From Cyclonatronum proteinivorum (GTDB lineage Bacteria > Bacteroidota > Rhodothermia > Balneolales > Cyclonatronaceae), in NCBI RefSeq assembly GCF_003353065.1, contig NZ_CP027806.1:840997-904996 (forward strand): a DNA stretch of 64,000 nucleotides, given 5' to 3'. Position numbers and translations under genes: made by a program. Below the pieces are notes generated by a model. That model saw only the letters and a program-made list of their open reading frames with translations, ran no database searches and was not told the origin of the DNA. Positions 40,988 to 62,512 of the stretch are shown here, in pieces; position 1 is the first letter of the stretch; every line of letters starts with the position of its first letter.

Positions 40988-41800
40988 ATGAGCAACAGTT
41001 TAAAAATTATATGCTTATTAGTTATTTTGCATAGTTTAGGAATTAGCTTACAAGCGCAGTCACTATCACAGGTAATGTCTCAATTCGAACATATTGAGCA
41101 CATAGGCCCCGCCCGTTTACCTCTCAATATTGCATTTACTGATAACCGATGGGACCAAACCAATCAAATTCCGTTATCAGTACTTGAAAATCGAATGCTT
41201 TCTTCAGACTTAATTGATACAGATACCCGAAGTATTGTTCAGGGAACGGGTAATGATATTACTTTGAGGGTTGAAGTTGACTTTCTGGGCCTTTACAGAA
41301 CAGAATCAGGTTTTTGGGGAGGGCGTTCAATCATTAAGGTATACGATGAAGGCAGAAATGTCTTTGTAGGGCATGCTAACTTCGATGAGATGTACCGCAG
41401 AGCACGCAGACCGTCAAGGGAAGAAACAGATCGGTGGGCATTTAATGTTATGGACAATGTAACAGATATACTATCACAGCTGATTATAGCTTATGCAGAA
41501 AGAAATAGCTCCCATATCAGAAAGGTTGAAACCTTCGGTTGCACGCCTGTAAGCGGGCAGAGAGCTGATCGTGCAGACAGGACAAGAGCACTATACGAAG
41601 CGTTTCGAAGGGGGGCGAATCAGGCCTGGGGACATCAGCTCGAAAGTATAACTACAATAACTGACCTTTATGATGTAGAGGATATCATTCGCGTCTCGGG
41701 AAGCGGAAGAATCACCACTTATGAAATTGATGAATCAAAGACTGTAATTACGTCTGATAATCACCTTTGTTTATTTGTAAATATGAATGTCCAACAATAA
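40988..41800 (+). CDS. Exported protein, FlgT/LPP20-like C-terminal half
   Basis: This 270-aa protein has a signal peptide (cleavage near Leu-Gln-Ala-Gln). The first half resembles CsgG-like or curli-related folds only loosely. The second half (from about residue 190) has Asp-Arg-Thr-Arg-Ala-Leu-Tyr-Glu-Ala, the helix that starts many FlgT-N or LPP20-like domains. It lies 11 bases after the lipoprotein gene and 13 bases before the LPP20-like gene. An envelope assembly role is possible but unproven. Confidence 0.6.
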   Translation: MSNSLKIICLLVILHSLGISLQAQSLSQVMSQFEHIEHIGPARLPLNIAFTDNRWDQTNQIPLSVLENRMLSSDLIDTDTRSIVQGTGNDITLRVEVDFLGLYRTESGFWGGRSIIKVYDEGRNVFVGHANFDEMYRRARRPSREETDRWAFNVMDNVTDILSQLIIAYAERNSSHIRKVETFGCTPVSGQRADRADRTRALYEAFRRGANQAWGHQLESITTITDLYDVEDIIRVSGSGRITTYEIDESKTVITSDNHLCLFVNMNVQQ

Positions 41801-41812
41801 ATATATAAGCGT

Positions 41813-42346
41813 ATGGAAAAGAATAAATTGCTGACTGTACTTGTTGCTTTTATAACTTTTTTTCTGATACAGGCTTGCGGAACTTCAGAAAGAACAGCAT
41901 CTGAAACAGTTGTAACACAAGAAACGGTTGTAAGACAAGACCAAACCGGAACTACTGCGACAACTCAGGTAGTACGAATCAATGATCAGGAGCTGCGCTC
42001 TGTAAGATCTGAATGGGAAAATGAGTATTTATATGCAGAAGGTTCTGTGCCTGTTGTTGATCGATATCCCGATGAAAACCGAAACAGAGGTTTGGCAAGA
42101 AGAGGTGCGATTGCAGACGCGCAGCGTAATCTTGCGCAGCAGATTAGCGAGGTGCGGATTACAGAAACCGTTACAATGAGGGATCTTGAAGTTTCTGACT
42201 TTGTCCGAACGGAGATGAATGCCGTTTTAAGAAACCTTGAGGTTGTTAATGAGACATTTGATGCGTCTTCGAATCATTATAATGTTACTATAAGAATGCC
42301 CTTGATGTCTGTATACAGGGTTGTTGAGCAATACACCAAGCGGTGA
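41813..42346 (+). CDS. LPP20-like lipoprotein
   Basis: This 177-aa protein has a lipoprotein signal peptide (Ile-Gln-Ala-Cys lipobox). The mature part contains a Tyr-Ala-Glu-Gly segment followed by Arg-Arg-Gly-Ala-Ile-Ala-Asp-Ala-Gln-Arg-Asn-Leu-Ala, which is the typical core of LPP20/FlgT-N domains, and ends with a strand and amphipathic helix. Family members are outer-membrane-linked lipoproteins with mostly unknown roles. Confidence 0.75.
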   Translation: MEKNKLLTVLVAFITFFLIQACGTSERTASETVVTQETVVRQDQTGTTATTQVVRINDQELRSVRSEWENEYLYAEGSVPVVDRYPDENRNRGLARRGAIADAQRNLAQQISEVRITETVTMRDLEVSDFVRTEMNAVLRNLEVVNETFDASSNHYNVTIRMPLMSVYRVVEQYTKR

Positions 42347-43627: not shown

Positions 43628-46600
43628 ATGTCAGCTCCCCTACAAATCCCCATAACATCATCTGCCAACCTCCTCATCCGGACTGATACGCCGCATGGGC
43701 TTTTTGAGGCGGTGCGGCAAAATACGCCGGTTTCCGAAACGGACTGGGAGGCAGGAGAGATGTTTTCGATTGGGCTGTCGAGTGAAGGCGGTGAAGCTAA
43801 TGCCCATACCGGTGCCGATGGTGGCGCAGATGGCAGCCCGACACCGCTCTCCGTACATATTCCTGCCGGCGAAGGGCGATCGCTCTCATTTGGGATGCAG
43901 GCTTCGAAGGGGCTTTCTCTCAGGCGTGATTTCAGTAGTGCGATTGAAACCCTCTCGCGCGGGCAGGAAATTGCCGCGGGTCTGCACAACCCCAATCCCG
44001 CGCAGGCGCATCACTTCCTGATGCTGCACTGGAACTATGATGTGAGAGCGGCACATGAGGGTACGCTGCCGCTGGGCGCCGGAAAATCGGCGGTGTACGG
44101 GGTGGAGGCGGGTCGGGAACGGCTATTTGCGCTCATTCGTGCGGTGGAGCCGCAGACCGGTACGCGCGACGCGCTTCAGACGATGCTTCGGAACTGGATG
44201 ATGCCCCGTGCCGTGCGTCAGGCTTCCGATCTTGATCCGGGTACCTGGCTGGTTACCGAGCTCGACCGCAGTGTGACTGCCAAAATCGGCTGTCAGATGG
44301 GCTATGATTTCAGCTGGGTGCATGAGCTGGGTGAGGGTGGTCTTGCCGGAGACATCGGACTGAAGCTGGAATCCGCAATGAAAGCTACGGTCGGTTTTGA
44401 TTTCAGCGGAAAGTTTGCGTTGGTCGTCGCACGGGAGTCTGCGGATCCTTCGAATCAACAGCTTCGGGTGCGGCTCTTTAAGCTTCGAAAGAAAGGCTGG
44501 GACTTCGCACTCAGCGCAACGGCTCAAGCCGAAAGCAGCGCGGAATTCAGGGAAGCTGATATCGAAGAGCTGCTGAAAGCCATCCTTGGGATTCAGTCGG
44601 TGCAGGTGTTGAGTGACCTGAAATCCGTCAAAACGTGGATGGGTGACAACAGCGATTTGGCCAGCTATTTTGCGGAACTGAGTGCAGACAGCATCCGCGA
44701 TTTTCTGGGAGGAGTCACCGGACTCGATGTTGTGGCTTCTGTTGATGAAGCCTCCGGGCAGCTGAATGCCTGGTTCAAAAAGTGGGACAGGCTCACGCAG
44801 GAAACCGCCGCAAGCCTGTGGCAGCTGGCCGAAGACGGCCTGCCCCTTGATGAAATCCGCGACCTCTCCCGCACCATTTCCGAAGCCGATGAGGACAAGA
44901 TCCGGACCTTTCTTATTGAAAAATGCAGTAAACCGGACTTCCTGACATCCGGCACCGGAAAATTCCTGCTTTCGCTGGTGCCCGGGGAAGACCTGTTCGG
45001 CGCGCTCCTCAGAACAAACAGCATTCGTCAGATTCGGGAGGCTGCGAAAAAGGTACACCATCTGCTGGATGGCGATGTTTCGGAGCGCATCCTGCTGAAC
45101 CTGAACCGGGCCATCAACCGGCGGCTGAACTTGGAAAACATCCGGGAAGTGCTCACCGAGACCGACTTTGAACAGCTCGATGAATGGCTGAAAGCCCGTC
45201 TTGCCCGTTTCTTTGGCAAAAAGCTGGAAGACCTTGGACTCGAAGATCTCCGGAATCTGAAGCAGTTCATCGAAAGATGGGAAGCAAAAAAGGGCCGCAT
45301 CCTCGAAAAAATGCAGGAAGTCGTGACGCATCAGTACGGCGCCGCTTTCAATTATGCGTACAGCAAAAGCCGAAGCCATGAGGCGCTGATTGATCTCAGC
45401 ATTGATTTCAGCTACCCCGACGAAGCCGGGCGCGTGCTGCAAATGGCCATGGACGGGAATTTTGACCGCCTCCTCACCGAAACCTTTGAGAGCGTGACCC
45501 TGCATCAGGCGGTGCTCACACACGGCATCATGCGCTCGGCTTCGGTCCAATTCAGTCTGCCCTTCGCCAAACGGGACATCAGCGCAATCACCGAATCCGT
45601 CGCAACCGCTGAGGCCTTTGATACGGAGGACGGACGCCTGCTCCTGTATCAGCTCGATACCAAAAGCAGGCTGAAGCACTTGGGGAAAAGTGCCGGACTC
45701 ATGACCATTGGCGGCTATTTTCAAAGTCAGGCGAACCAAGTTCGAACCCACAGCCGGGGGAGCATCGACTTTTCCTACACCCTGCGTCAGGCACATAAAA
45801 GCATGCAAGCCGATACCTTAAAGCTTACGCTGAAGCCGGTGCTCAAACAGTATTTTCCGGAGGTCGGGACGGTTTGGGTGAACGACCTCGATAAAATTAT
45901 TGACGAGCTGGAAGCAAACGAAACCGGCAACCTTGGCAGCCTGCTGCAATCGCTGCACGTACATGTGCCGGGCGAAATTGGAGTACGGTGGCTGCATGCG
46001 CCTTCAAAAATACGGGATTATCAGCCCATGGCCGATCACCTGATGCAAACCATGCGGAAAACCTTCTTTTCCTATTACCTCAACAGGCTTTCTGCAAACA
46101 CGCACGATAAAAATACAGCGGATGCCCTCCTCCTGTACAGCAGTGTTCCGGAGGGTTTCTTCCCGGGAAAAAGAGGGAAAAGACTGCATTGGTATGTGGG
46201 GAAAAGATATCACAGCGGGTTGGGCGTCAGGGATTTTGACAAAAAAAGCATTCGGGCAGCTATGCTGATCAGGCTTCTTGAAATGTCCCACGCCATCGGC
46301 ACCCTGCCTGATTTGGAGGACCGTTTCGGGAAATACATTCCCCGACCCGAAAACACGACCCGGATTTTGAACGATGTGTTCAATTCCCCCTCTGCAGAGG
46401 AATTTCTTAACAATCTTTTTTGGACAGAGCAACAAATTATTGACGGAGCCGCAGCTGCGGGCCGAAAGCTCAACAAAGCCCTCAAAAAATCCGCATCCAA
46501 ACCACAGAAGGCTGTAAAAGCCTTTGCTGCATTCGGGGACAGTCTGGCTAAGGCATTCGATGGCAGGCAACTCAAACGGGTTTTTGGGGAAGCACACCTC

Positions 46601-46852
46601 AGCGCATCCGGCGCCCTGCTCTTTGCCGCCGCCGCCGAAGCTTTCCCGGAAAAGGCCCTCACCAAGTTACAAGGAAATACCCGCATGAGCGATACAGGCG
46701 AAGCAACACCCCCGCAACACATCCGCTCCTTACTTGCCCTCTACTTCCTCAGGCCCGAATCCCAGCATGATTTTAATACGTTTCTCAAATCTGGCAAGGT
46801 GCCTGCGGAAGAGGTGTTGTTGAGTCCGATGCTGGTATCGGGGGAGGGGTAG
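43628..46852 (+). CDS. Large protein of unknown function
   Basis: This 1,074-aa protein is not recognised. It has no signal peptide. The N-terminal 160 residues are strand-rich with a Gly/Ala/Asp-rich segment near 55-70. The middle (about 210-310) contains an amphipathic beta pattern alternating Gly, Phe and charged residues. The rest (330-1070) is largely helical with many Leu, Glu and Arg residues and may be a helical repeat or coiled region. The GC content is higher than in the preceding 43 kb. It is monocistronic. A long antisense open frame overlaps it but is best explained by codon bias. Confidence 0.75.
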   Translation: MSAPLQIPITSSANLLIRTDTPHGLFEAVRQNTPVSETDWEAGEMFSIGLSSEGGEANAHTGADGGADGSPTPLSVHIPAGEGRSLSFGMQASKGLSLRRDFSSAIETLSRGQEIAAGLHNPNPAQAHHFLMLHWNYDVRAAHEGTLPLGAGKSAVYGVEAGRERLFALIRAVEPQTGTRDALQTMLRNWMMPRAVRQASDLDPGTWLVTELDRSVTAKIGCQMGYDFSWVHELGEGGLAGDIGLKLESAMKATVGFDFSGKFALVVARESADPSNQQLRVRLFKLRKKGWDFALSATAQAESSAEFREADIEELLKAILGIQSVQVLSDLKSVKTWMGDNSDLASYFAELSADSIRDFLGGVTGLDVVASVDEASGQLNAWFKKWDRLTQETAASLWQLAEDGLPLDEIRDLSRTISEADEDKIRTFLIEKCSKPDFLTSGTGKFLLSLVPGEDLFGALLRTNSIRQIREAAKKVHHLLDGDVSERILLNLNRAINRRLNLENIREVLTETDFEQLDEWLKARLARFFGKKLEDLGLEDLRNLKQFIERWEAKKGRILEKMQEVVTHQYGAAFNYAYSKSRSHEALIDLSIDFSYPDEAGRVLQMAMDGNFDRLLTETFESVTLHQAVLTHGIMRSASVQFSLPFAKRDISAITESVATAEAFDTEDGRLLLYQLDTKSRLKHLGKSAGLMTIGGYFQSQANQVRTHSRGSIDFSYTLRQAHKSMQADTLKLTLKPVLKQYFPEVGTVWVNDLDKIIDELEANETGNLGSLLQSLHVHVPGEIGVRWLHAPSKIRDYQPMADHLMQTMRKTFFSYYLNRLSANTHDKNTADALLLYSSVPEGFFPGKRGKRLHWYVGKRYHSGLGVRDFDKKSIRAAMLIRLLEMSHAIGTLPDLEDRFGKYIPRPENTTRILNDVFNSPSAEEFLNNLFWTEQQIIDGAAAAGRKLNKALKKSASKPQKAVKAFAAFGDSLAKAFDGRQLKRVFGEAHLSASGALLFAAAAEAFPEKALTKLQGNTRMSDTGEATPPQHIRSLLALYFLRPESQHDFNTFLKSGKVPAEEVLLSPMLVSGEG

Positions 46853-46985
46853 GAACGTGCTTTTTATTTTGGTGAATTTTAGCGTATTTGTCGCGTCAGC
46901 GTGACCCTGAATCTCTTACGAACGCTTTTGAACAGTTTCCGCTTTAAGCCTGAAACCAATTCTTAACCTGTTAACCCCCCCAACC

Positions 46986-47483
46986 ATGCTCCACAAACTA
47001 ACCCCCCTCCTCCTCCTCACCCTCTTCGCCTGCACCTCTACCACGGCGCAGCACGATGCGGGAAGCTTCTCTGATTTTATGGATGCCTTTGATGAGGCCA
47101 TTCAGGTTTTTGTGAATGGGGAGCCGGAGCCGTTTATGGGGCTTTGGGCGCAGCAGGAGCGGACGACCCTTGCGGGCGGACTTGGCGGAGAGATTGAGTT
47201 CGGATGGGAGGCCATCAGCGAGCGGCTTGTACGGGTGAGCGGGATGTACGGTCAGTTCGATCAGGCCCGGTATCAGGCGCAGCGCGTTGCCTACGGGTAT
47301 GGGGATCGTTTCGGCTATTTGGTGCAGCACGAAGAAATCGAGATCGATGATGCCGAAAGCGGCACAACGGCGACCCGCTTTTACCGTGCTACCATGACGT
47401 TCGAGCGCATCGGCGATACCTGGCGCGTCGTGCACCGGCAGGCCGATCTTCACACGGTGGAAGATGACGGCCTCCGCGATTAG
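46986..47483 (+). CDS. SnoaL-like (NTF2 fold) lipoprotein
   Basis: This 165-aa protein has a short signal peptide with a Leu-Phe-Ala-Cys lipobox at Cys16. The mature part looks like a SnoaL/DUF4440 domain: helix with Phe-Met-Asp-Ala-Phe-Asp-Glu-Ala, then Gly-Leu-Trp-Ala-Gln, Gly-Trp-Glu-Ala-Ile, and final strands Ala-Thr-Met-Thr-Phe-Glu-Arg-Ile-Gly-Asp-Thr-Trp-Arg-Val-Val-His-Arg. The last two strands are the signature of this fold. The ligand or reaction is unknown. Confidence 0.75.
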   Translation: MLHKLTPLLLLTLFACTSTTAQHDAGSFSDFMDAFDEAIQVFVNGEPEPFMGLWAQQERTTLAGGLGGEIEFGWEAISERLVRVSGMYGQFDQARYQAQRVAYGYGDRFGYLVQHEEIEIDDAESGTTATRFYRATMTFERIGDTWRVVHRQADLHTVEDDGLRD

Positions 47484-47551
47484 GCTATAGCACTTCACAC
47501 TTCAGCGGACCTATCACTTATGCTGAAAAAAAGCCAACGGTTCCCATAAAA

Positions 47552-47613
47552 GCGGCAGCGGATTTTCATCTGCGCGGTTTTTTTAGGGGGAAACACCGTG
47601 AACATCAGGTGTT
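47552..47613 (+). terminator. Terminator and attached 28-base element, copy A
   Basis: An imperfect GC-rich hairpin (about 47552-47577) is followed by seven T (47578-47584), then AGGGGG and a hairpin AACACC-GTGAACATCA-GGTGTT. It follows the lipoprotein gene. A 28-base core (47580-47607) is shared with the minus strand of 63446-63473 with one mismatch. Confidence 0.5.
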
Positions 47614-47828
47614 GCGGGGCAGATTGAAAACGCCTAAACCTAAGACAGGTCCCTTGCTTTTTGGTGCCGGTAAATGTTTCAGCGGCCTTTGGCACCGTAA
47701 GTTGTCCGTACTTCGGCTAAAAATCGTCTCTTAAACTGCTTCTGTGCATCACAATTCCCCAAAAAGTGTATGGGAAATGGCAGCAAATAATGTGATTACG
47801 TTTAATGCGGATTTAGGTGCAGGGGGGA
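47614..47828. other. Intergenic region before the defence island
   Basis: No gene is supported in these 215 bases. Short open frames on the plus strand overlap the 3' part of the ptuB-like gene and are shadows. Confidence 0.4.
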
Positions 47829-48494
47829 TCAAATAATCCCATCGGGACGGGCTGTTCTGTTGCCTTCGGAATCAAGTACAAAATGCGTCCCTCTGAGCAC
47901 ATACCTAAGTTCGGCTACAACAGCTTGGTGTTGCTTGAATATCTTGCACCAAATGGAGTAAAAACCCATACCTTTGGCGGTAAGTGCTATTTGTTCTGCC
48001 ATTTGCGGACTGGGATTTTCCTCCCAGTTTCTCAGGGATTGTTTGGCTACAAGCCAGGCCTGAAGCCTGAAAATCCACCTTTAATCGGCTTTGCTTGGCT
48101 CGTGTGAAGTGCCCGGATTTCTGTCTAATCCCATTAACCCGATGGTTGCTATGGCTTCCGCCCGAACCGGAGTATCTTTGGCGGTTATCCCGCCTGTTTC
48201 CGAGTAGTCAAAAGCTGCATCTGAGTTATCACGATCAGGCCAGATATATCCCTCTCTTGATAAATTGCGGGCTCCTTTCACCGTATTGCAGTATTTGCAG
48301 GAAAGCAAAAGGTTTTCCCAGGCTAAGGGATCACCTCCGTTGGCCGTTGGAACCACATGTTCTACTTCGATCATATTCGTGATGGCCATTTCGCAGTACG
48401 AGCAATGCCAGTCAATCCTGCTGCCCAGGTCGTTTCGTGCATCCTGATATCTTTTGTAGGTCTGTGGTGATTCACCTTTTAAAACAGCTCTCAC
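47829..48494 (-). pseudogene. Septu-like HNH endonuclease (PtuB-like), interrupted by in-frame stop
   Basis: From GTG 48494 the frame gives 137 residues with an HNH nuclease zinc site: Cys31-x2-Cys34, Glu45-His46-Val-Val-Pro, Asn61 and Cys66-x2-Cys69. It ends at TAA 48081-48083. Read through this codon, the same frame continues as Arg-Trp-Ile-Phe-Arg-Leu-Gln-Ala-Trp and a clear C-terminal domain with Ser-Ile-Trp-Cys to TGA 47829, in all 221 codons, the usual length of such nucleases. So a single nonsense change (a likely ancestral CAA) splits the gene. It starts one base inside the ATPase stop (TAGTG overlap), as in Septu pairs. Confidence 0.8.
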
Positions 48495-49771
48495 TATTTG
48501 CCCGCATTTTTAAGTTTTTCCTGTTCTATAAAGGCATCAAATGCCGGGTTTTGAGAAAATGGCCTGATGCGTTCCGCCAACTTCATAGCGTCCGTTTCTG
48601 ACAATACCTTACCGGCATCTAAATCCCTGTAAACATCTTTGGCCATTTCAAATAGCTCCGTTTTTTTCGTACTCCATTGCGGCATTTCAACACCTTGAAT
48701 AAACTCGGCAATATCTTCAATACTCAGCTCTGAAGCCCCTTTTACATTTTTCAACTTGCAGTTCTCCAATATGAAAAGCTGACCAAGGTCTGTTTCCTGT
48801 ATTAGGAACGGACTATGCGTAGTGGCGATGAACTGAATTTTTGGAAAGGTTTGCAACAGACTTGTGACAATGATTTTCTGCCAGGCAGGATGCAGGTGCA
48901 GATCTAATTCATCAATAAAAATAATTCCCTGTGTCTCTTTTAAGGCCTCTTCTCCCAAGTACGGATTCAGCAAAACACAGCGGTGTGCTATATCGGCAAT
49001 CATAGCAAGGAAGCTGCGGTAGCCATCGCTGAGGTAGTTAAAGGGAAGTACGCGGCCGTCTTCAAATTCGAGGGTCAGCCCTCTGCCTGTGTCAGGATCA
49101 AGATCATAGATTATTTTCCGGCATCCGGGCAGCGCTTCTGTAATTGCGGTTTTTATCAGGTTTAGCGTAAGGTCTTGTTCGTTGCGCTGGATCTGGGACA
49201 TCTCTTTCAGTCGGAACCATTCCGTGAATCTTCTGAAATTGGACTTGGCATCAAAAGCTTCCCGGTATCCCCTCAGCCGGGAACCTATTTCTTTGGGTTT
49301 TGCAGATGCTTTGTCTTTCCGCTGGCGATCCTGTGCAATAAGGAACAGCCTGCCGGTCGAAAAATAACTAATCAGCGGCAGCTTTACTTTCTCCCCCTTT
49401 CTGATGGCTACGTCAAGCCTTTTGCCCATCATGCTGATTGCGGATGCATTTTTTTTAGTTGTACTGCCTTTTCGTGTGTTGCGCTCCCGGCTCCACTGAA
49501 TGCTGGCATTATTGACAACCCCTTCCGCAATAATTTCTACCGGAAACTGATACTCTTCATTTCTGTAGGCTATCTCGTCGTTTGCTATACCTTTGGTAGA
49601 AACGTCCCTCACGCCGATAAACAGGGAGCCCGCGGCAATGAGCAGGGCTTCAAGTACAGCCGTTTTCCCACTCCCGTTATCGCCGATAAATATGTTTAGC
49701 TGATCATTGAGGTTCAGGCTTAACTCTTGAATGCCCTTGAAGTTTCGGATGGTTGCTTGTTTGATTTTCAT
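48494..49771 (-). CDS. ptuA: Septu-like AAA ATPase (PtuA-like)
   Basis: This 425-aa ATPase has Walker A Gly-Asp-Asn-Gly-Ser-Gly-Lys-Thr (30-37), an ABC-like signature Leu-Ser-Asp-Gly (247-250), Walker B Ile-Phe-Ile-Asp-Glu-Leu-Asp (284-290) with Leu-His-Leu-His-Pro after it, and switch His319. This plan, plus an HNH nuclease overlapping its stop codon, matches the Septu anti-phage system (PtuA/PtuB), and also the ATPase of some retrons; no retron reverse transcriptase is present. The ATPase is intact, but its partner nuclease has a premature stop, so the system may be disabled. Gene symbol given by arrangement and motifs, not by a database search. Confidence 0.75.
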   Translation of the reverse strand: MKIKQATIRNFKGIQELSLNLNDQLNIFIGDNGSGKTAVLEALLIAAGSLFIGVRDVSTKGIANDEIAYRNEEYQFPVEIIAEGVVNNASIQWSRERNTRKGSTTKKNASAISMMGKRLDVAIRKGEKVKLPLISYFSTGRLFLIAQDRQRKDKASAKPKEIGSRLRGYREAFDAKSNFRRFTEWFRLKEMSQIQRNEQDLTLNLIKTAITEALPGCRKIIYDLDPDTGRGLTLEFEDGRVLPFNYLSDGYRSFLAMIADIAHRCVLLNPYLGEEALKETQGIIFIDELDLHLHPAWQKIIVTSLLQTFPKIQFIATTHSPFLIQETDLGQLFILENCKLKNVKGASELSIEDIAEFIQGVEMPQWSTKKTELFEMAKDVYRDLDAGKVLSETDAMKLAERIRPFSQNPAFDAFIEQEKLKNAGK

Positions 49772-49974
49772 AGCAGCTTAGCTTATTAATCTGAATCTGG
49801 CTTCATAATATAAGGCAAAGCTAAGCAATACAGATACCTGAGTGTTTCGATCTGTTCCTGGCCCTTCCCAAATATTAATTTTCAGGCAAATGTAAACTGA
49901 TTCCCTGAAATACTTGCAATTAATCCTGGGGCGCAACGACAGGAACAGACCATCTCCCCAAACCTTCCCGCCCG

Positions 49975-50541
49975 CTACTCCCGTATTTTGCGTTCAGCGA
50001 GGGCTTCGAGGTCCTCGTAGGTTACGCCGTACAGCTTGAGCTTTTCGAGGGCGGCGCAGAGGTTGTCGTCGAATTTGTAGAGGGCTTTATCAAGCTGCGT
50101 GCCGACACCCATGTTCTTTAGGGCATCATCGGGGTAGCGGTCGCGGAGGGCGAGCACGTGCCGGTCGGTGTAGTTCATGGGCAGCTCCGGCAGGGCCGAT
50201 GCACGACCGCTGAGGTATTCGATGAAGCCAAACCGAATCATTTCCGGACCTTTTTCGACATTCAGGTAGCGGTCCGCGATGGTGAACACGAGCGGCTCCT
50301 CCGGTCTGGGTTTGGTGAGCTGCTTCAGCAGGTAAATCGGGAAGAGGTAGCGGCCAAAGCCTGACGCATGCGCCTCAACCGGCACGGACGCCCCCGGCGC
50401 CCGGAGCGTCATCATTTCAGGATGAATATCAAGCTCAAGCCGGAAGAACACATCCCCTTTGGTGTACTTATCCAGCGTAAACCGAATCAATCGGATGGCC
50501 TTCCTGAGTTCTGCTTTATTGACCCGGATGGTGAGTTTCAT
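49975..50541 (-). CDS. Uncharacterised protein with possible clamp-like (DnaN-like) fold
   Basis: This 188-aa protein is not securely recognised. The first 120 residues follow a beta-alpha-beta pattern (Ile-Arg-Val-Asn-Lys-x-Glu-Leu-Arg-Lys-Ala-Ile helix, then strands with Phe-Arg-Leu-Glu-Leu-Asp and Leu-Arg-Ala-Pro-Gly, then a Phe-Pro-x-Tyr-Leu-Leu-Lys-Gln-Leu helix) that recalls one domain of DNA sliding clamps. It begins 44 bases after the helicase stop and on the same strand, so it probably belongs to the same operon. If it is a clamp-like protein it could tether the helicase to DNA. This is inference only. Confidence 0.6.
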   Translation of the reverse strand: MKLTIRVNKAELRKAIRLIRFTLDKYTKGDVFFRLELDIHPEMMTLRAPGASVPVEAHASGFGRYLFPIYLLKQLTKPRPEEPLVFTIADRYLNVEKGPEMIRFGFIEYLSGRASALPELPMNYTDRHVLALRDRYPDDALKNMGVGTQLDKALYKFDDNLCAALEKLKLYGVTYEDLEALAERKIRE

Positions 50542-50585
50542 GGGGGATTAGCTTGGCATTTACATTTTTAGTTTCACCTTTACCG

Positions 50586-52646
50586 TCACTTTCCACGCAA
50601 ATCATCCAGAAATTCTGATTCTGGTGACGTGCCGGTTACGAGCAGGTAATCCCGGGCGCGGGTGCAGGCTACATAGAGAAGGTGCCGTTCGGTGTTGTAG
50701 ATTTCTTCGAGGTCGGCTTGATCAGCGATTTGTTCGATGCGGCTTTGCAGGGGGATGACCTCATCATCGCAGGCCATGACGACAACCGCACGGAATTCCA
50801 AACCCTTGGCCAGATGCATGGTGCTGAGGGTAATGCCCCGGCTTTCCTGCACCCGGCCCGTCATAAGCGTGTAGGGGTACCCTGCGGCCTCAAGCGCTTG
50901 TTTTGCGCGATCGAGCTCATGTTCTGTGCGGGTGAACAGCCCGATTTCCGAAGGTTGAACACCGCTTTCCAGCTTGTCAGCAAGCCATGCGGTTACCGCC
51001 TGCTGCTCTGCTTCTTCCGTTTCAAAAACGTGAATATCCGGGGTGGGACTGTTGAATACCGAGACCGTTTTGTTGCGCACTTCTTCGTTGCCGTCCACAT
51101 CTCTGACAACGGGATCGAGCAGTAAATCTGCTTGCCTGCGTATCTGATGCGAGGTGCGGTAGTTGATGTGCAGCGTGCGTGACCTGCCTCGGATATCAAC
51201 GCCGAGGGATTTCCATGAAAAGGGCTGCTGAAAAATGCGCTGACCAAGATCTCCGGCAAAAAACAATCCGCCGGGTTTATCACCCAGCAGGGAAAGCAGC
51301 CGTAACTGTGCGACGCTGATATCCTGCGATTCATCCACAACCACAAAATCGTACGGAAAGCGGCCTTCACTCCGGTACTGTGCTTCAAGGCGCCGGTACA
51401 CCGCATTCAGGCTTGTCAGGTTGTTTGCCGCAAGTTTTTCGCGGAGCTTTTCGAAAACGGCCCAAAGCAGCTTGCGGCGGTTTTCCGGCAGCCGCGTTTT
51501 TCGGCCTATACGCTGTACTACACGGTATTCATCCCAGCTTTGAAGCTGCCAGGCATCGACGACTTCCTTCCATTCTTCCATCAAAAAGCGGGCACTGAAG
51601 GTTGCGGCTTCCTCCCCCTCAACCGCTTCCTGAAGCAGTTTGGCGATGGTTGCGTCGTCTGCAAGCGCTGCTTCGCCAAAACGGCTTTTGTACAGCCGGA
51701 GTCCCAATTCAGGCAGGGCGTGTGTCTCAATGCGCTCCTTGAGGCGAGGCCGGGTGCTGATCAGCCGCCGGAGCTTTACATCAAGTGCTGAGGCCAGTAC
51801 ATCCGAGAAGGTCGTGAGCAGTACGCGGGCCTCCGGATGCTGCTCGGCCAGCCAAACGGCGCGGTGCAGGGCTACGATGGTTTTCCCGGTCCCGGCCGTA
51901 CCGGAAACCCGCGCTGGACCACCGCCTGCCTGCTGCACGATTTCCCGCTGTGCCGGATGCAGGAAAACCGACCACTTTTCCCAGGGATATTCCAGGGCGA
52001 GCTGCAGCTCTTCGAGGTTATCCATCACACGGAAACGGCGTTTCGCATCGGGGTGCTCAAAAGGATCAGACGCCGGATCGGCCTGCAGTGGCAGCGGCGG
52101 CTCGTGTCCGACCGCAAGATTCAGCAGCGCTTCCGCAGCCTCGGCAGGCAGGAGGGCCGCAAGGGCGAGCAGCTCATCCTCATCGGCCTGTTTGGCTTCT
52201 TTGACCCACTCCTGCGGGATGCCGTATTGCAGCAACTTCCCCTCGGGTACCGCAGCCAGCGGGCGTTGTTTCGGCTCCGGCTTTTGAACGTAGGTTGGAA
52301 TCAGGACTTCCTGCACCCGCTCCCGAATAAGGACCATCTGCGCCGCGCCGGTTGTTGGGTGTCGCTCAAGCTTTCGGCGTGAAGCCCAATCGTATGCCTG
52401 ATCGTGATGATCCACATAGCACACCAGCATGCTTTGGGCTGATTTATGGATGATGAGCCGGATGTCCCGCGACACCCGGGCGGACCAAAACCCTTTGTCC
52501 TTCACACGCGCGATACGATGCAGTTTAATCCCGTTATTGGCCGGATCAACCTGAAGATCAAAAACCGTTGTCTTTACGGCCTTTTGCTCCTCGTTCGTGA
52601 GCTTGGCGAGGCTGTCGGTGAAGGTATCGGCGATAAGAAACTGCAT
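50586..52646 (-). CDS. UvrD-like helicase with N-terminal RelE/ParE-like domain
   Basis: This 686-aa protein is a fusion. Residues 1-97 follow the RelE/ParE toxin fold: an N-terminal strand, a helix, His-Arg-Ile, Phe-Trp-Ser-Ala-Arg-Val-Ser-Arg-Asp-Ile-Arg and a C-terminal Asp-His-His-Asp-Gln-Ala-Tyr-Asp-Trp-Ala. A linker follows, then an SF1 helicase with Walker A Gly-Thr-Ala-Gly-Thr-Gly-Lys-Thr (249-256), Walker B Val-Val-Asp-Glu-Ser-Gln (about 430), Leu-His-Ile-Asn-Tyr-Arg-Thr and the C-terminal Val-Ala-Cys-Thr-Arg-Ala-Arg. It lies eight bases after the small nuclease-like gene. Helicases of this type unwind or translocate DNA; the toxin-like part may bind or cut RNA. Confidence 0.88.
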   Translation of the reverse strand: MQFLIADTFTDSLAKLTNEEQKAVKTTVFDLQVDPANNGIKLHRIARVKDKGFWSARVSRDIRLIIHKSAQSMLVCYVDHHDQAYDWASRRKLERHPTTGAAQMVLIRERVQEVLIPTYVQKPEPKQRPLAAVPEGKLLQYGIPQEWVKEAKQADEDELLALAALLPAEAAEALLNLAVGHEPPLPLQADPASDPFEHPDAKRRFRVMDNLEELQLALEYPWEKWSVFLHPAQREIVQQAGGGPARVSGTAGTGKTIVALHRAVWLAEQHPEARVLLTTFSDVLASALDVKLRRLISTRPRLKERIETHALPELGLRLYKSRFGEAALADDATIAKLLQEAVEGEEAATFSARFLMEEWKEVVDAWQLQSWDEYRVVQRIGRKTRLPENRRKLLWAVFEKLREKLAANNLTSLNAVYRRLEAQYRSEGRFPYDFVVVDESQDISVAQLRLLSLLGDKPGGLFFAGDLGQRIFQQPFSWKSLGVDIRGRSRTLHINYRTSHQIRRQADLLLDPVVRDVDGNEEVRNKTVSVFNSPTPDIHVFETEEAEQQAVTAWLADKLESGVQPSEIGLFTRTEHELDRAKQALEAAGYPYTLMTGRVQESRGITLSTMHLAKGLEFRAVVVMACDDEVIPLQSRIEQIADQADLEEIYNTERHLLYVACTRARDYLLVTGTSPESEFLDDLRGK

Positions 52647-52654
52647 ATTGTCCT

Positions 52655-53101
52655 TTATCTGATGCGCGTGATTTTTTCAGGGAAGGCTAAGCCGCTTTGG
52701 GCCAGCTTTCTTGCCTGTGAGCTGTCCTTCAGGATGGCGATGCTTCCAGTAGCTATCCACAGGAAAGGTTTATCGGAGGCCTTCATGGCATTGATTTCAG
52801 CTCCGTGCTCCTGTAACCAGGATTTTAACCAGCGCAGCTTATTAAGCATCTCGGCAACATTTCCGGTATTCACGGGATGAACTTCCACAAAGTAGGCCTG
52901 TTGATTGTACCCGATGATGTAGTCCCAGCGGGGACTGTTTGGGTATTTCCGGGAAACACAGCCGTCCAAATCTACGCTGCCTTCCAGGGCTCTTGTGTTT
53001 TCGGGGATCACCTTGCCTGAATTGATGCCGAGTGCCCGCAGGCCGGTTTCGTAGCAGGCTTCTATGGATGGGGTTTTCTCAACGGCACCTTTAAAACGCA
53101 T
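52655..53101 (-). CDS. Small putative nuclease of the ATPase-helicase operon
   Basis: This 148-aa protein overlaps the ATPase gene by 11 bases. It is not recognised as a known family. It contains a possible restriction-endonuclease-like core: Trp-Asp60-Tyr-Ile-Ile-Gly followed by Tyr-Phe-Val-Glu73-Val-His75-Pro, in the order strand, Asp, strand, Glu-x-His; the usual Lys is replaced by His, and a long helix follows. This makes a PD-(D/E)xK-type nuclease plausible but not certain. Its position between an ATPase and a helicase supports a DNA-targeting effector role. Confidence 0.6.
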   Translation of the reverse strand: MRFKGAVEKTPSIEACYETGLRALGINSGKVIPENTRALEGSVDLDGCVSRKYPNSPRWDYIIGYNQQAYFVEVHPVNTGNVAEMLNKLRWLKSWLQEHGAEINAMKASDKPFLWIATGSIAILKDSSQARKLAQSGLAFPEKITRIR

Positions 53102-54254
53102 CTCTTGAAGCCATTAAGTTGGAGATGAGTTCAGAGGCTTTACTGCCAAAGGCCGTCATGCCTCCCCATTCGGCCAGGTCCGGGTCTTCGTCTGTTTGCT
53201 CAAGTGCTGAAATGTCTCGCACAGTCACTTCGTCTGATTTCCGGTCGAAGAAGTAAGTATAAAAAGCAGCACGGTTTAGGGTGTGCTCAAAAATGGCGTG
53301 CAGCGAATCAGATATTTGGCCTAAGCTAAACAGCTTGCGAAGTTCCTCCGGCTTTGCTTTCATCTGCTGCATCAGGCGCACCGTCCAGCAAAGCTGTAAA
53401 ATGGTGGATGAATGCGTTGACACGATAACGTTATACCCCCGTGACATGAGTTCAAGGAAAAGGAGCATGAGCGCTTCAATGGCCATCGGATGCAGCCCCA
53501 TTTCCGGTTCTTCGATGATGACATACTGATGATGCTGAAGCTTCCCGTTCGGGGATGGACCGTTTTGCAGTAACCCGTACAGTTGTAGCAGTAAAGGAGT
53601 GAATTCGCGCTGACCGGCTGACCAGCCGAGATAGGAAATCTGACTTTCGCCGGTATCGAGCATGAGGCGCATTTGTGGTGTGCTTTTGTCGAGTTTCACG
53701 CTTGCGTTCACAAAAATGGCCTTGCGGATGTGTTCTTCAATCTCCGCATGCATCAGGCCCGTTGCAGGAAAGACATCCCCGCTTGTTTGGTCAAGCCCTA
53801 AATCCAGCCAATGTTGCAGGCCACTGCTGAATTTTTTTAGCACAAAGGGATCTTTAAGGCGGAAGTCAGAATACGGTCTCGGCCATCCGTGATGCATGGC
53901 AAGCACGCGCTGCGCCGGCACATAGGCTACGCGCTCGTGTTGCGTCCCTTTTTCTTGGATGAAATCATGCACCTCGGACACCGCACCATCTACCCGTATT
54001 TCGGTATCCTGACGCAGTATTTTCCCCATACCCTCGCCCATGTACAGATCGAGGAACTCGTTGGGGTTGCCTTTGTGCTGTACGCCGTGATTTTTCATCT
54101 GCGCGAGGATGTGCCCGCCATCCAAAGCCAGCTTGAACATCTGAAGCAGGATGCTTTTCCCGCTCGCCTGCGGGCCAATAAAAACGGTAAAGTCGCCAAA
54201 GGTGATGTTGGCTTCTTTGATTTGACCGAGGTTGTTTGATTCAAACTGTTTCAT
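53091..54254 (-). CDS. AAA (OLD/ABC-like) ATPase without visible nuclease domain
   Basis: This 387-aa ATPase has Walker A Gly-Pro-Gln-Ala-Ser-Gly-Lys-Ser (27-34), signature Ser-Ala-Gly-Gln (212-215), Walker B Ile-Glu-Glu-Pro-Glu (247-251) with Leu-His-Pro, and switch His281. This is the plan of OLD-family and SMC-like ATPases. Unlike OLD or GajA proteins it ends without a TOPRIM domain. It is the first gene of a unit with the small nuclease-like gene and the helicase. The combination recalls Gabija (OLD-type ATPase-nuclease plus UvrD helicase) in split form. Confidence 0.82.
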   Translation of the reverse strand: MKQFESNNLGQIKEANITFGDFTVFIGPQASGKSILLQMFKLALDGGHILAQMKNHGVQHKGNPNEFLDLYMGEGMGKILRQDTEIRVDGAVSEVHDFIQEKGTQHERVAYVPAQRVLAMHHGWPRPYSDFRLKDPFVLKKFSSGLQHWLDLGLDQTSGDVFPATGLMHAEIEEHIRKAIFVNASVKLDKSTPQMRLMLDTGESQISYLGWSAGQREFTPLLLQLYGLLQNGPSPNGKLQHHQYVIIEEPEMGLHPMAIEALMLLFLELMSRGYNVIVSTHSSTILQLCWTVRLMQQMKAKPEELRKLFSLGQISDSLHAIFEHTLNRAAFYTYFFDRKSDEVTVRDISALEQTDEDPDLAEWGGMTAFGSKASELISNLMASRDAF

Positions 54255-54335
54255 TGGATGTCGTCCTTAACAAAATTCTAAAAGTTTTTCATACTTGTCT
54301 CTTAATTATTATGCAAAACAGTAGGAATGCAATTA

Positions 54336-55886
54336 TTAGGTCGCTCTTGTTCTTTGGTGCTGACCTAAATATCCTACAATTACTTTATTTGATTCTTTGT
54401 CAAAAAAGAAAGCTATCCTAATCGTATACTCAGGGTGCTTGTTAGCACCTGTTCCAATATGTTCTTTTAGCTGGTGTTTTTCTCCGTTGTAAAAATATTC
54501 ATAATCATCTTTATATTGCCCCATAGTCCTTGTGGATTGGTTTGAAGAATAAAAGAATCCACAGCTTTCTTTACATGAATGATCAAGATTTTCAATTTGT
54601 ACTTCCTTTGTTTTATATTTACAGTAGGTTAAGGCAAGCCATGTTAGGGCTTTATGAAGCGATTCGTAATCCTTGAATGAACTATCTTTAATGGCTCTTT
54701 TTTCAATTAAAATGTGATCTCTGTATTTTTTGGATATATCAGAAATTACGCTATTAAACGAATCGAAAGATAACGTGTCATTTAAAATAGTGTTTATACT
54801 TTTGTTGTATTTTATACTTGTGAGAAGTTGTTCGTTTTGCTTTCTTAGATCAAAAACTTGTCCTTTTAGTTCTTTGATTTCGTTTGTTTTCTCATCGTTA
54901 CTTGAGCTAAGGCTTAAGTTTTCTTCTTCAAGTAATTGTATCCATTCTTCTTGTGTGCCCGTTTCTTTAGCTTTTTCTAATCTTTTTTGCCTGTCTATTT
55001 TTTGAGCACCTTCCCAAGTGAGATATTCACTTACATACCTGGTTTGCGCATGCTCGCAAAGCTGGTTAAAAAGAAAATATTCAAACTCATCTTTGTTGCC
55101 ATAATCCAGGATTTGCTCTTGAGTCCATAAGGTGTGAAGTTGAGGATTATCAGTAACTTTAAATCCAGGCCAATATATTCTTACGGCTCCATCATAGCAA
55201 TTATGGGTTTTCCCTAAATATGTTTGCAGGTCCCAAGTAACCGATTGCTCATCGCTCATAATTATATAAGCCATGCCAGAGCAATTTCTGATAATTGAAC
55301 TTACATTTACAATAGGTTTATTATCATTGTTATCTCTTGAAATAAATATTATAGGAAGTTTTCTCCGGCTGCTGGTCAATAAGTAGAAATAAATCGGATT
55401 GTCTTTTTGAGGTAGGGGTATATGACCATTTTGTAATGGGAAAAGTTCAAAAGCACCAATTTCTTGAATTAATTCATAAATTAAGTTAGGCCTACTATGT
55501 TGACGGACAATAGGTTGAAACTTTTGATTTCGGCTTCCATACCAAATGTTTATTGAAAATCTATAAGAATGATCATCATTAAAAATTTTTTTTCCTATAA
55601 CAATCTCTGTTCTCCAAAAAACGTCATCTGAGCTACTGTCATCATGCTCATATCTAATCGCAAGCAATTCCCCCACCTTTGTTTCTGTGAAATAGTATTT
55701 GAATAACTTATGATCATTAGCTTCTATTTTAAATTCATTGTCAGTCAAACTAAATGATGGTGGTAGTGAAAAACCACGTTTTGGCTTTTTTAACCATCTA
55801 ATAATAATATTTGTGATATCGTCTAAATTCCTAAGTGGTTCTTTAGAACTACCAAGTTGGAATGTTGTGAAAAATGACTTCTTCAT
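54336..55886 (-). CDS. Uncharacterised coiled-coil protein of the defence island
   Basis: This 516-aa protein is not recognised. The N-terminal 290 residues are strand-rich. A coiled coil (about 305-375, with Lys-Glu-Thr-Gly-Thr-Gln-Glu-Glu-Trp-Ile-Gln and Glu-Ile-Lys-Glu-Leu-Lys segments) follows, then a helical domain and a C-terminal part ending in Ile-Val-type strands that contain Val-Gly-Tyr-Leu-Gly-Gln-His. It is much more AT-rich than the genes on either side and starts 23 bases after mod, which points to separate acquisition. It might act as a sensor or effector linked to the type III system. Confidence 0.7.
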   Translation of the reverse strand: MKKSFFTTFQLGSSKEPLRNLDDITNIIIRWLKKPKRGFSLPPSFSLTDNEFKIEANDHKLFKYYFTETKVGELLAIRYEHDDSSSDDVFWRTEIVIGKKIFNDDHSYRFSINIWYGSRNQKFQPIVRQHSRPNLIYELIQEIGAFELFPLQNGHIPLPQKDNPIYFYLLTSSRRKLPIIFISRDNNDNKPIVNVSSIIRNCSGMAYIIMSDEQSVTWDLQTYLGKTHNCYDGAVRIYWPGFKVTDNPQLHTLWTQEQILDYGNKDEFEYFLFNQLCEHAQTRYVSEYLTWEGAQKIDRQKRLEKAKETGTQEEWIQLLEEENLSLSSSNDEKTNEIKELKGQVFDLRKQNEQLLTSIKYNKSINTILNDTLSFDSFNSVISDISKKYRDHILIEKRAIKDSSFKDYESLHKALTWLALTYCKYKTKEVQIENLDHSCKESCGFFYSSNQSTRTMGQYKDDYEYFYNGEKHQLKEHIGTGANKHPEYTIRIAFFFDKESNKVIVGYLGQHQRTRAT

Positions 55887-55909: not shown

Positions 55910-58900
55910 TCACACCCGAAACACCTTCATCACCTCATCCCCTAAGTGATTAATCACTTTCACGGCGATTCTGCCGCTTGCGGGTTTTTCGAAGGGGACG
56001 GAGGTGTCGGAGTTGAGGGTTTCCCAGGCTTGTTTGTTGATTTCGTTTTTGAGGGTGGTTTTGAGGGATTTGTAGGGGTCGTTGACGCCCGCGCCGAGGA
56101 AGTAGGCATGACGCACGAAAAAGCTTTCTTCGTTATAGTCGGTATCCAGGAACCAGCAGGCGATGCCGTCGGCATTGTCGCTGCGAATTTCTCCCGTTTG
56201 CGGATGAAAGACATCAACGCCATTAATTCTAACCTGATAGTAGTGGGTATTGGTGAGGGGCAGGTGGGAAGCGTTCAGCGCTTGGTTAGCGCCTTCATCA
56301 GACCGTTTAGCATTTTGCTTATTTCCTCGCAGTCGCGCAACAAGCTGTTGCAATCCGTCGCGGTCGCCAGTTGTAAGCGCTCCGAGATAATCAGAAAGAT
56401 TTCCAGCTCTGCCAGAGATCCCCGCGCTATCCCAAGCGACTGCAGAAATTCCCCCGTTGTCCGCCTTGCCTGACCCTCCGCTATGTTTGCGGGTATCGAG
56501 GTGGCGGCCCGCCGCATTTGTGATATAATCCCAAATTTCTCTTCGGTTGGAAAGCTTGAGGTAAGCCTGTAAATCTGAATGCTTAAGTCGATTGATTTCT
56601 TCCAGACGGTCAGTTCCCGATATGATTTTAAAGATTTCATAAGGTGCTAATTTTTGATGATGTCTGTCCACTAACCATTCTTCACTTGCCACATCCACAT
56701 CCGGCTCGCCAAAAATCACAAAGAGGTTGCCTTTGCCGGTGAGGTCGTCGGCGGTGTGCAGGTCGGCGTTCATGTTGGCTTTGAGTACCGGGATGATGCC
56801 GATCTTGTTCACATCGGCGGCGTGTGCTTCGTAGCTGAAGGCGCAGGAAATGATCACATCGAAACCGACGTCTGCGGCTTCGCGGGCTGCATCAACGAGG
56901 TCAGCCCGCATGACGGTGCCGAATTCCGGACCGATAAGGATGCCTGCGCGGCGGCGGGTTTCGCCTTCGTAGTAGAAGCCCTCCGCGGCGATGTTTTTGC
57001 CCGGCCAGGGTTCGAGGCTCTCGAAGGTGATGCGGTCTTCTTTGTGGGCCTGCTGAATGCCGGCTTCGCGCAGGTTATCTATGATGAGTTCGCCAAAGTC
57101 GCGGGTTTTGCGGTAACCGTTGCCGGGCGCAGCGGTTTTGCGGTCGATGATTTCGTCGTTTTCATCGAGGGCGGCGGTGCGGTGCGGGGAGAGGCTTTCG
57201 ACCGTGAAAGGACCGGCTACGCGCACCTTGTTTTTGTCGGTATAGGGCCGGTCGTAGAGGTACTCCTGCTCGGCATTGGCGGCAATGGAAGCGTCCATTT
57301 CGTTTTGGCGCTTGATGCGGAGTTTCCACCATTTGGCGTGGAGCTGATTCGCCTTGTCGGGCCAGGGATCGCGCGGCTTTTCGGGCAGCTCCTCGAGGCT
57401 TAGGGTGCGACCCAGGGCTTCGGTGAGTTTGGTGAGCAGATTGCTGAGGCGGACCTTACTTGCCTCGATGCCTTTCTCAAGCTCGGCTTTGATATCGGCG
57501 TGCACGTCTTGCGCGGGTTCCGGCCAGGGTTCTCCGGCCTCGCGCGGGATTTCCCATTCTTCCCAGCTTTTACCCAGCTCGGTATTGAGCTGCGCGCGCA
57601 CCGGCTCCATCTTTTCCTGAAACTGATCCCAGATGACGTCAATCTCCGCGTTGTTCGCGATGTCGCGGAGCATGATGTGCGGCACGCGCTCATACACAAA
57701 GCCCTGCCGGATGTCGCCATAGGTCGGCTTCATGCTCGGGGGCCTGCGCTGCAGTTCGGCCTCTTTTTCCTGACCTTCTTCAGAATCCGCCAGCAGGTAA
57801 TAGTCGTATTTGGCGCCCATCAGCCGGGCCCGTGCAAGGGCAAGCGAAACCCGCGAAGTATCAATCGTAATCCAGCGGCGCCCCCATTGTTCGGCGACAT
57901 AGGCTGTTGTCCCGGAGCCACAGGTAGGGTCAAGGACGAGATCGCCGGGGTCGGTTGTTAATGTTATGCACCTTTGTATTACTGTTGTAGCTGTTTGTAC
58001 TACGTACTTTTTTTCGTCGCCGAAACCAGATTGCCTAGTATCATCCCAAATATCATTAAAAGCTTGACAGGGAAAATCAACAGCTGGCCTAATGAATCCT
58101 AAAGTTTTACCAGAAAATGTTAGTCTAGATGCTTTATTCAATCTATTCATTCCTTTTAAATTTGTTTTCCATCCGCCTTTACCAGGCCTAAATCCCCTAT
58201 TTTGAAATGAATACTCAAACATTGTTGTATTGCTTCCAGACTGTGATGTTATTGGATTCATTCTTGCCAATCTATATGGATTACCATCACTATTTTTGAA
58301 TACACCATATTCATCAAAATCATGTCTATAATTTAAATCCTTATCATAATCTCTATAAAACCACAGTTTTCTATACTTGATATTTTCTTTTGATTTCGCA
58401 AACCAAATAATAAAATCACGTGTACTATCCAATATTGATGAAGCTTTTCCAGTTGTTGTTCTGAAGCTAATCAAACTCACAAAATTCTCATCCCCAAAAA
58501 CCTCATCCATCAAAGACCTCACCCGGTGCACATTTTCATCTCCGATTTGCACGAAAATGGAGCCGGATTCGGTGAGCAGGTCGCGGGCTACGGTCAGGCG
58601 GTCGCGCAGGTAGGTGAGGTAGGAGTGAATGCCGTCGCGCCAGGTATCGCGGAAGGCTTTCACCTGCTCCGGCTCCCGGGTGATGTGCTCCGCCTTCCCA
58701 TCCTTCACATCCCGCGTTGTTGTGCTCCACTGAAAGTTGGAGTTGAACTTGATGCCGTAGGGCGGATCGAAATAAATGCACTGCACCTTGCCCCGCAGGC
58801 CCTCCCGCTCGGCAAGGGAAGCCATCACGTACTTGGAGTCGCCCAAAATCATGCGGTTGGTCCAGTTGGCGTCGTGCCGGTAGAACTCTGTCTTCGCCTG

Positions 58901-58912
58901 CTCGTCGGCCAC
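55910..58912 (-). CDS. mod: Type III restriction-modification DNA methyltransferase (Mod), main part, with inserted cassette
   Basis: This 1,000-aa frame holds a beta-class amino-methyltransferase: Asp49-Pro-Pro-Tyr52 motif IV, a target recognition region (about 145-310), then motif I as Asp-Pro-Thr-Cys-Gly-Ser-Gly-Thr-Thr (328-336). The C-terminal half is the extension usual for this Mod type. Residues about 742-890 do not match the family: they are the other-frame reading of an inserted four-helix-bundle gene (56275-56640), after which family sequence resumes (Gln-Val-Arg-Ile-Asn-Gly-Val-Asp-Val-Phe). GTG 58912 is a restart: in the same frame upstream, across a TAG at 58949-58951, lies the normal N-terminus. 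So Mod is damaged or translated in two pieces. Confidence 0.85.
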   Translation of the reverse strand: MADEQAKTEFYRHDANWTNRMILGDSKYVMASLAEREGLRGKVQCIYFDPPYGIKFNSNFQWSTTTRDVKDGKAEHITREPEQVKAFRDTWRDGIHSYLTYLRDRLTVARDLLTESGSIFVQIGDENVHRVRSLMDEVFGDENFVSLISFRTTTGKASSILDSTRDFIIWFAKSKENIKYRKLWFYRDYDKDLNYRHDFDEYGVFKNSDGNPYRLARMNPITSQSGSNTTMFEYSFQNRGFRPGKGGWKTNLKGMNRLNKASRLTFSGKTLGFIRPAVDFPCQAFNDIWDDTRQSGFGDEKKYVVQTATTVIQRCITLTTDPGDLVLDPTCGSGTTAYVAEQWGRRWITIDTSRVSLALARARLMGAKYDYYLLADSEEGQEKEAELQRRPPSMKPTYGDIRQGFVYERVPHIMLRDIANNAEIDVIWDQFQEKMEPVRAQLNTELGKSWEEWEIPREAGEPWPEPAQDVHADIKAELEKGIEASKVRLSNLLTKLTEALGRTLSLEELPEKPRDPWPDKANQLHAKWWKLRIKRQNEMDASIAANAEQEYLYDRPYTDKNKVRVAGPFTVESLSPHRTAALDENDEIIDRKTAAPGNGYRKTRDFGELIIDNLREAGIQQAHKEDRITFESLEPWPGKNIAAEGFYYEGETRRRAGILIGPEFGTVMRADLVDAAREAADVGFDVIISCAFSYEAHAADVNKIGIIPVLKANMNADLHTADDLTGKGNLFVIFGEPDVDVASEEWLVDRHHQKLAPYEIFKIISGTDRLEEINRLKHSDLQAYLKLSNRREIWDYITNAAGRHLDTRKHSGGSGKADNGGISAVAWDSAGISGRAGNLSDYLGALTTGDRDGLQQLVARLRGNKQNAKRSDEGANQALNASHLPLTNTHYYQVRINGVDVFHPQTGEIRSDNADGIACWFLDTDYNEESFFVRHAYFLGAGVNDPYKSLKTTLKNEINKQAWETLNSDTSVPFEKPASGRIAVKVINHLGDEVMKVFRV
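56245..56690 (-). mobile_element. Four-helix-bundle cassette inserted in mod (approximate limits)
   Basis: The limits are estimated from where Mod stops and resumes matching its family (about residue 742 to 890). Flanking bases show partly complementary sequences, for example GGTTAGTGG on one side and CCCACTAC on the other in the transcript, so the ends could base-pair as in rRNA intervening sequences. The insertion appears to keep the mod frame. Confidence 0.6.
56275..56640 (-). CDS. Four-helix bundle (S23/IVS-type) protein inside mod
   Basis: This 121-aa frame is a typical four-helix bundle protein of the 23S rRNA intervening-sequence type: Lys-Ser-Tyr-Arg-Glu-Leu-Thr-Val-Trp-Lys-Lys near the start, Gln-Met-Arg-Arg-Ala-Ala-Thr-Ser-Ile-Pro-Ala-Asn-Ile-Ala-Glu-Gly in the middle, and a helix-rich end. 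These occur as stand-alone genes and as cassettes in rRNA genes, and are related to the accessory protein Avd of diversity-generating retroelements. Here it lies in a different frame within mod, in the same direction. Mod stays open through it. Confidence 0.85.
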   Translation of the reverse strand: MKSLKSYRELTVWKKSIDLSIQIYRLTSSFPTEEKFGIISQMRRAATSIPANIAEGQARRTTGEFLQSLGIARGSLAELEIFLIISERLQLATATDCNSLLRDCEEISKMLNGLMKALTKR

Positions 58913-58948
58913 CCCGTTGAAATCGCTGAAGAGGTCGGGCTGCTTGGG

Positions 58949-59272
58949 CTATGCGTCCTCTTCCTTGATCAGCCGCAGCTTCGCACTCCGCTTTTTCAGG
59001 TCTTCGATCAGGGCTTTGGGATGAATCTTTTCCTGAATGTAGAGCGGGGGCGCCTTCACCACAAAATCGGCCCAGTTCTGCTCATCCTTGCCCCGCCACA
59101 CGAGCTGCGGATCGAGGTCGCGGTTCCGGCGCTCATAGGCGACCTCAATCGGCGACCGCTGCGCCTCATCCAGCAGCGGCTGATATTCTGCCGTCGGGAT
59201 ATTGCGCCGCGAGGCGTCTTTATGCGTGAGCGTTTCAATCGCGATCTTGCTGGATTTCTTGCGTTTGGCCAT
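58949..59272 (-). pseudogene. mod: Mod N-terminal part, cut off by amber codon
   Basis: This 107-aa frame is the usual N-terminus of this Mod family: Glu-Thr-Leu-Thr-His-Lys-Asp-Ala, Asn-Ile-Pro-Thr-Ala-Glu-Tyr, Leu-Val-Trp-Arg-Gly-Lys-Asp-Glu-Gln-Asn-Trp-x-Asp and Pro-Pro-Leu-Tyr-Ile-Gln-Glu-Lys-Ile-His-Pro. It ends at TAG 58949-58951. The next codons, in the same frame, read Pro-Lys-Gln-Pro-Asp-Leu-Phe-Ser-Asp-Phe-Asn-Gly and pass straight into the main Mod frame. A single nonsense change (ancestral CAG would fit) therefore separates the two parts. Confidence 0.85.
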
Positions 59273-59313
59273 GATGTTTATGGGAAGCGTAAGTTTTTGT
59301 TATTGCTGATAAA

Positions 59314-59422
59314 GACCATTTTCCTGACGACAGGAAAATGGGTTGGTGATGAGGGCGGTTGGAGACGAGCGTGGGTGAGGGATTTCGGTACGGACCATTT
59401 TGTTGGCGTCAACAAAATGGGT
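59314..59422. repeat. Pair of REP-like hairpins between res and mod
   Basis: CCATTTTCCTG-acga-CAGGAAAATGG (59316-59341) and CCATTTTGTTG-gcgt-CAACAAAATGG (59395-59420) are two perfect 11-bp inverted repeats with four-base loops. Both have the same outer part (GACCATTTT...AAAATGGGTT) and different inner bases. They lie about 79 bases apart in the same orientation. No T-run follows, so they are unlikely to be terminators. The pattern resembles REP/BIME pairs moved by a RAYT transposase, or operators. Confidence 0.75.
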
Positions 59423-59454
59423 TAAATGATGAGCCGAGAAGTTGCTAAAATCAT

Positions 59455-62400: not shown

Positions 62401-62512
62401 CAGGGCCGAAACGCGGCGAAAATTTAGCGGTTTTTCTGTCGGTTGACCTTCTTTATCGAGCTCCCAGTGCCGCGTAGGGCACACGTAAGGTGAATTTAAA
62501 AGGGTCTTTCAT
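59455..62512 (-). CDS. res: Type III restriction enzyme Res subunit, start apparently frameshifted
   Basis: This 1,009-aa frame (GTG 62484) is an SF2 helicase-nuclease: Walker A Ala-Thr-Gly-Ala-Gly-Lys-Thr-Thr (160-167), Asp-Glu-Ala-His box (297-300), helicase C-terminal motifs near Gly-Arg-Ala-Leu-Arg-Arg-Gln, and a PD-(D/E)xK nuclease at the end (Pro-Asp-Phe near 914, Glu-Ile-Lys near 937). It lacks the usual first residues. ATG 62512 followed by Lys-Asp-Pro, after removal of one T from a run of four, gives Pro-Leu-Asn-Ser-Pro-Tyr joined to Cys-Pro-Thr-Arg-His-Trp, which matches the family start. So either a one-base insertion or a restart at GTG is present. Res precedes mod, the reverse of the common order. 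Confidence 0.88.

Follow-up and report, generated by a model that had tools for sequence, protein, structure and literature searches.

A Septu type I locus of Cyclonatronum proteinivorum with a ptuB gene probably inactivated by a recent nonsense substitution

Does a Septu-like gene pair whose nuclease gene is interrupted by an in-frame stop codon still encode a working defence system? The question is raised by a locus on the minus strand of a 64,000-nucleotide stretch of the Cyclonatronum proteinivorum chromosome, referred to here as the window. Its anatomy can be read directly from the open reading frames of that strand, which agree with the coordinates of the original prediction. The ATPase gene ptuA (48494..49771, 425 codons) is intact. 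The nuclease gene ptuB starts at a GTG at 48494 that shares one base with the ptuA stop (TAGTG), and its 5' part (48081..48494) runs for 137 codons to a TAA at 48081..48083, codon 138. The frame then continues for a further 83 codons (47829..48080), free of further stops and of indels, and closes with its own stop at 47831-47829. This remaining part, which holds an in-frame ATG at 48002, is untranslated unless read through; the joined frame has 221 codons, the TAA counted.

The family of both genes is equally plain. PtuA matches the PADLOC model PDLC00278 (PtuA1) with an E-value of 8e-123 over residues 1-423 of 425, its closest solved chain is E. coli PtuA (8ee4, E 9.3e-46), and it contains a Walker A motif (GDNGSGKT), a Walker B motif (FIDELD) and a TTHSP motif. 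The pre-stop part of PtuB matches positions 1-136 of the 227-position PADLOC model PDLC00315 (PtuB1) with an E-value of 1.3e-40 and the Pfam HNH family with an E-value of 9.6e-9; the HNH motif lies entirely within it, as do four zinc-type cysteines (C31, C34, H46, N61, C66, C69 and N70). No match to the reverse transcriptase family PF00078 (RVT_1) was found in the whole genome, and thus the locus is assigned to Septu type I rather than to the retrons; no Rfam match at an E-value of 0.1 or better was found in 46900-55000. The locus has the full-length PtuA-type ATPase and the adjoining, one-base-overlapping HNH nuclease gene of a type I system. A complete PtuB with both the HNH and the C-terminal part is lacking, since the TAA follows codon 137, and we accordingly file the locus as an inactivated copy and not as a working system.

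Is the frame beyond the stop genuine PtuB? Searched alone, it matches PDLC00315 at positions 142-209 of 227 with an E-value of 1.7e-13, and is thus collinear with the pre-stop match. Against a PtuB family profile made from 24 relatives, with the window sequence left out, it scores 57.6 bits in the correct frame, while the other five frames score about -2 bits each and 1000 shuffled sequences reach 8.5 bits at most. Judged from these matches, the post-stop frame is the real C-terminal part of PtuB. The nonsense codon was originally described as interrupting the HNH frame ahead of a clear C-terminal domain in that frame, and the profile scores bear this out: the codon lies inside a family-typical protein.

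To place the stop among relatives, we scanned 84,980 species genomes, which yielded a single close relative, the locus L045:4724-6666 of Tenacibaculum ovolyticum DSM 18103. The gene order and the one-base overlap are the same there, and the products are a 425-aa PtuA and a 221-aa PtuB; the Tenacibaculum ptuB is intact, however, with a serine where the window gene has TAA. The two PtuB sequences align without a gap over all 221 positions. They are 68% identical up to the stop and 69% identical over the 52 codons after it, with a drop only in the variable tail; the similar values give no sign of extra decay beyond the stop. Between the two loci as wholes, PtuB is clearly nearer (64% identity) than PtuA (47%), and third-position divergence is also slightly lower for ptuB than for ptuA. 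Plasmids, phages and viral contigs held nothing closer than distant PtuBs, and the sole match in a sample of the flavobacterial family was the Tenacibaculum genome itself. In the five congeners searched, ptuA is absent from all, which fits a freely losable accessory gene.

The original prediction had named relatives with a PtuB ending at the same position as the finding that would speak against it. All 27 relatives examined continue past the stop column; they comprise the Tenacibaculum locus, 24 further whole-genome loci (including a second copy from the window's own genome) and two viral-contig loci. Sixteen columns are invariant among 26 aligned PtuBs, and all are kept in the window sequence. 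Three of them, R139, W182 and F186, fall after the stop, where the codons still encode them. Both the place of the stop in comparison with the relatives and the loss of these three residues from the short product are direct observations. A second internally stopped PtuB, flagged in genome G936 (L055), was rejected as a parallel, because the TAG there marks the natural C-terminal end of the protein, as it does in L040. Two loci in draft assemblies of other genomes are damaged in different ways. In L029 ptuA is mostly lost, with the last ~75-125 residues kept, and the PtuB tail is divergent; in L041 ptuA seems to be frameshifted around residues 54-64. Damage to PtuAB pairs is thus not unique to the window locus.

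What the stop removes can be seen on an AlphaFold2 model of the Tenacibaculum PtuB (mean pLDDT 89.5). The model has helices at 139-159, 163-176, 179-185 and 190-199, and the TAA is the codon directly before the first of these. Compared with the solved PtuB chains of E. coli Septu (8EEA) and of the retrons Ec78/Eco7 and Ec83, it reaches Z-scores of 12-18 over 173-186 residues spanning both parts, and these matches cover residues 1 to 187 or beyond; the next HNH structures reach a Z-score of 4 over about 85 residues. According to the alignment and the predicted fold, the product ends ahead of the conserved RW motif and of the C-terminal helices (139-199). The HNH core remains in the short PtuB, but a part common to every solved and compared PtuB is gone. 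E. coli Septu forms a PtuA:PtuB complex of 6:2 that protects against phage (PMC12948488, PMC13096335), and defence is abolished when either its ATPase or its HNH motif is mutated (PMC13096335). For growth arrest by retron Eco7, neither protein suffices on its own (PMC11555353). Since both are needed in these systems, a PtuB unable to work with PtuA would be silent.

The ptuAB pair forms one edge of a defence cluster whose genes lie on the same strand; wherever a close family model exists for a cluster gene, that gene is full length. Beyond ptuA come a protein of 188 aa (49975-50541), for which neither Pfam nor PADLOC gave a match, and the UvrD-type helicase that it adjoins (50586-52646, minus strand); judged by eye, the first ~100 residues of the helicase resemble a RelE/ParE-type toxin fold. 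The helicase is followed on the same strand by an AAA ATPase with a 148-aa partner, candidate PDC-M56A/B with full-length PADLOC matches (52655-54254), a candidate HEC-07 (54336-55886) and a type III-like pair for modification and restriction (55910-62484). Its members are a 1000-aa methyltransferase and a 1009-aa ResIII protein with only a weak resemblance to known restriction enzymes of type III. Beside the island, a 1074-aa protein (43628-46852, plus strand) has no Pfam, PADLOC or NCBIfam match. A further TAA followed by a long open frame, between 40988-41800 and 41813-42346, was considered as a broken gene and rejected: these are two separate proteins, each opening with an apparent signal peptide of its own. 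A second and complete PtuAB pair, with products of 432 and 251 aa, lies about 69 kb away on the same chromosome (L002:173-2232; G000:C1:957022-959081), and its PtuB is 33% identical to that of the window. It is located about 2 kb from a tRNA-Met gene.

Together, our results suggest that the locus is probably an inactivated Septu type I system whose ptuB was broken recently by one nonsense substitution. We then propose that a ptuA-ptuB locus was horizontally acquired into the defence island and that a single recent substitution inactivated ptuB. PtuA would probably still be made, whereas PtuB would end after residue 137, with the HNH core present and the C-terminal helical part missing. Without this conserved part the PtuAB nuclease very likely neither assembles nor acts, and the window copy would give no defence. 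We infer that the event was recent, that function was lost and that the host bears no cost, perhaps because the second complete PtuAB pair and the other defence systems remain. Under a neutral model with an assumed indel:substitution ratio of 0.1, the chance that 83 codons acquire no new stop or indel is below 5% beyond ~0.09 substitutions per site; the third-position distance to the Tenacibaculum relative is about 1.2. Among the fates originally put forward, disabled is favoured; for the other two, a phase-dependent system or one that needs readthrough, we found no positive evidence.

A sequencing or assembly error, by which the true codon would be a sense codon and the Septu pair intact and functional, is the alternative that survives best, and we consider it unlikely. 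One substitution is indeed the sole defect in an otherwise perfectly kept ptuB frame, and the neighbouring defence genes are full length. However, the genome is a single contig and 99% complete, and a lone substitution error, unlike an indel, is uncommon in finished genomes.

Much less probable is readthrough or recoding, in which some full-length PtuB, at a dose kept low, would come from ribosomes that read past the TAA at a sufficient rate. Readthrough would preserve the downstream frame too, and this frame is as well conserved as the upstream one. The RNA 3' of the stop folds slightly better than shuffled sequences (z -1.47), but 12 of 200 shuffles fold as well, and the fold thus lies within chance. 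None of the 43 tRNA genes found has a tta, cta or tca anticodon, so that no suppressor tRNA is apparent, and TAA, which ends 16 of the 34 main genes in the window, is the most frequent terminator there. The closest relative has no stop at this position, so a stop here is no conserved trait of the family. The more specific version, in which leaky termination gives enough full-length PtuB and the TAA limits the dose of a self-toxic nuclease, deserves slightly less credence still.

We regard as similarly improbable a functional short PtuB, in which the 137-residue HNH part would work with PtuA alone or together with a C-terminal fragment started at the ATG at 48002. The complete HNH motif and the cysteines do precede the stop, and an in-frame ATG is present downstream. 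With the catalytic motif wholly upstream, the short form may have some nuclease activity. On the other hand, no relative ends at or near the stop position, the lost region holds three invariant residues, and the residue at the ATG is also a methionine in the unbroken relative and hence not a new start. Phase variation, in which a reversible switch (by slippage, inversion or conversion from a donor copy) would have the stop as one of its states, can hardly be entertained, as nearby repeats are short, two-copy only and never across the stop, the genome holds no second DNA copy, the second PtuB has a protein identity of only 33%, and a substitution stop is not a product of slippage.

Inactivation by a nonsense substitution would make this locus a well-documented instance in which a defence system has lost its effector but retains an intact ATPase gene. 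An automatic pipeline would annotate such a locus either as an orphan PtuA or as a short HNH gene that seems complete. Pseudogenes of defence systems are known to be common (PMC9252829); this Septu case is useful for studies of turnover and would represent ordinary decay of a defence system, with no surprise in it.

Among known systems, Retron type I-A (Ec78/Eco7 and Ec83; Septu type II) has the PtuAB effector pair and its fold in common with the locus. Retron type I-A, however, carries a reverse transcriptase and a non-coding RNA beside ptuAB, neither of which was found here (whole genome and 46900-55000, respectively), and the locus scores far below the Ec78-specific NCBIfam cut-offs. With Septu type I it shares the gene order, the one-base overlap, both profile families and the absence of a reverse transcriptase, and its full-length PtuB relative has the fold of solved PtuB, as in that type. 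The original description as a Septu-like pair thus holds. The difference is that PtuB is complete in Septu type I, whereas the PtuB of this locus is cut at residue 137 of 221 by a nonsense codon.
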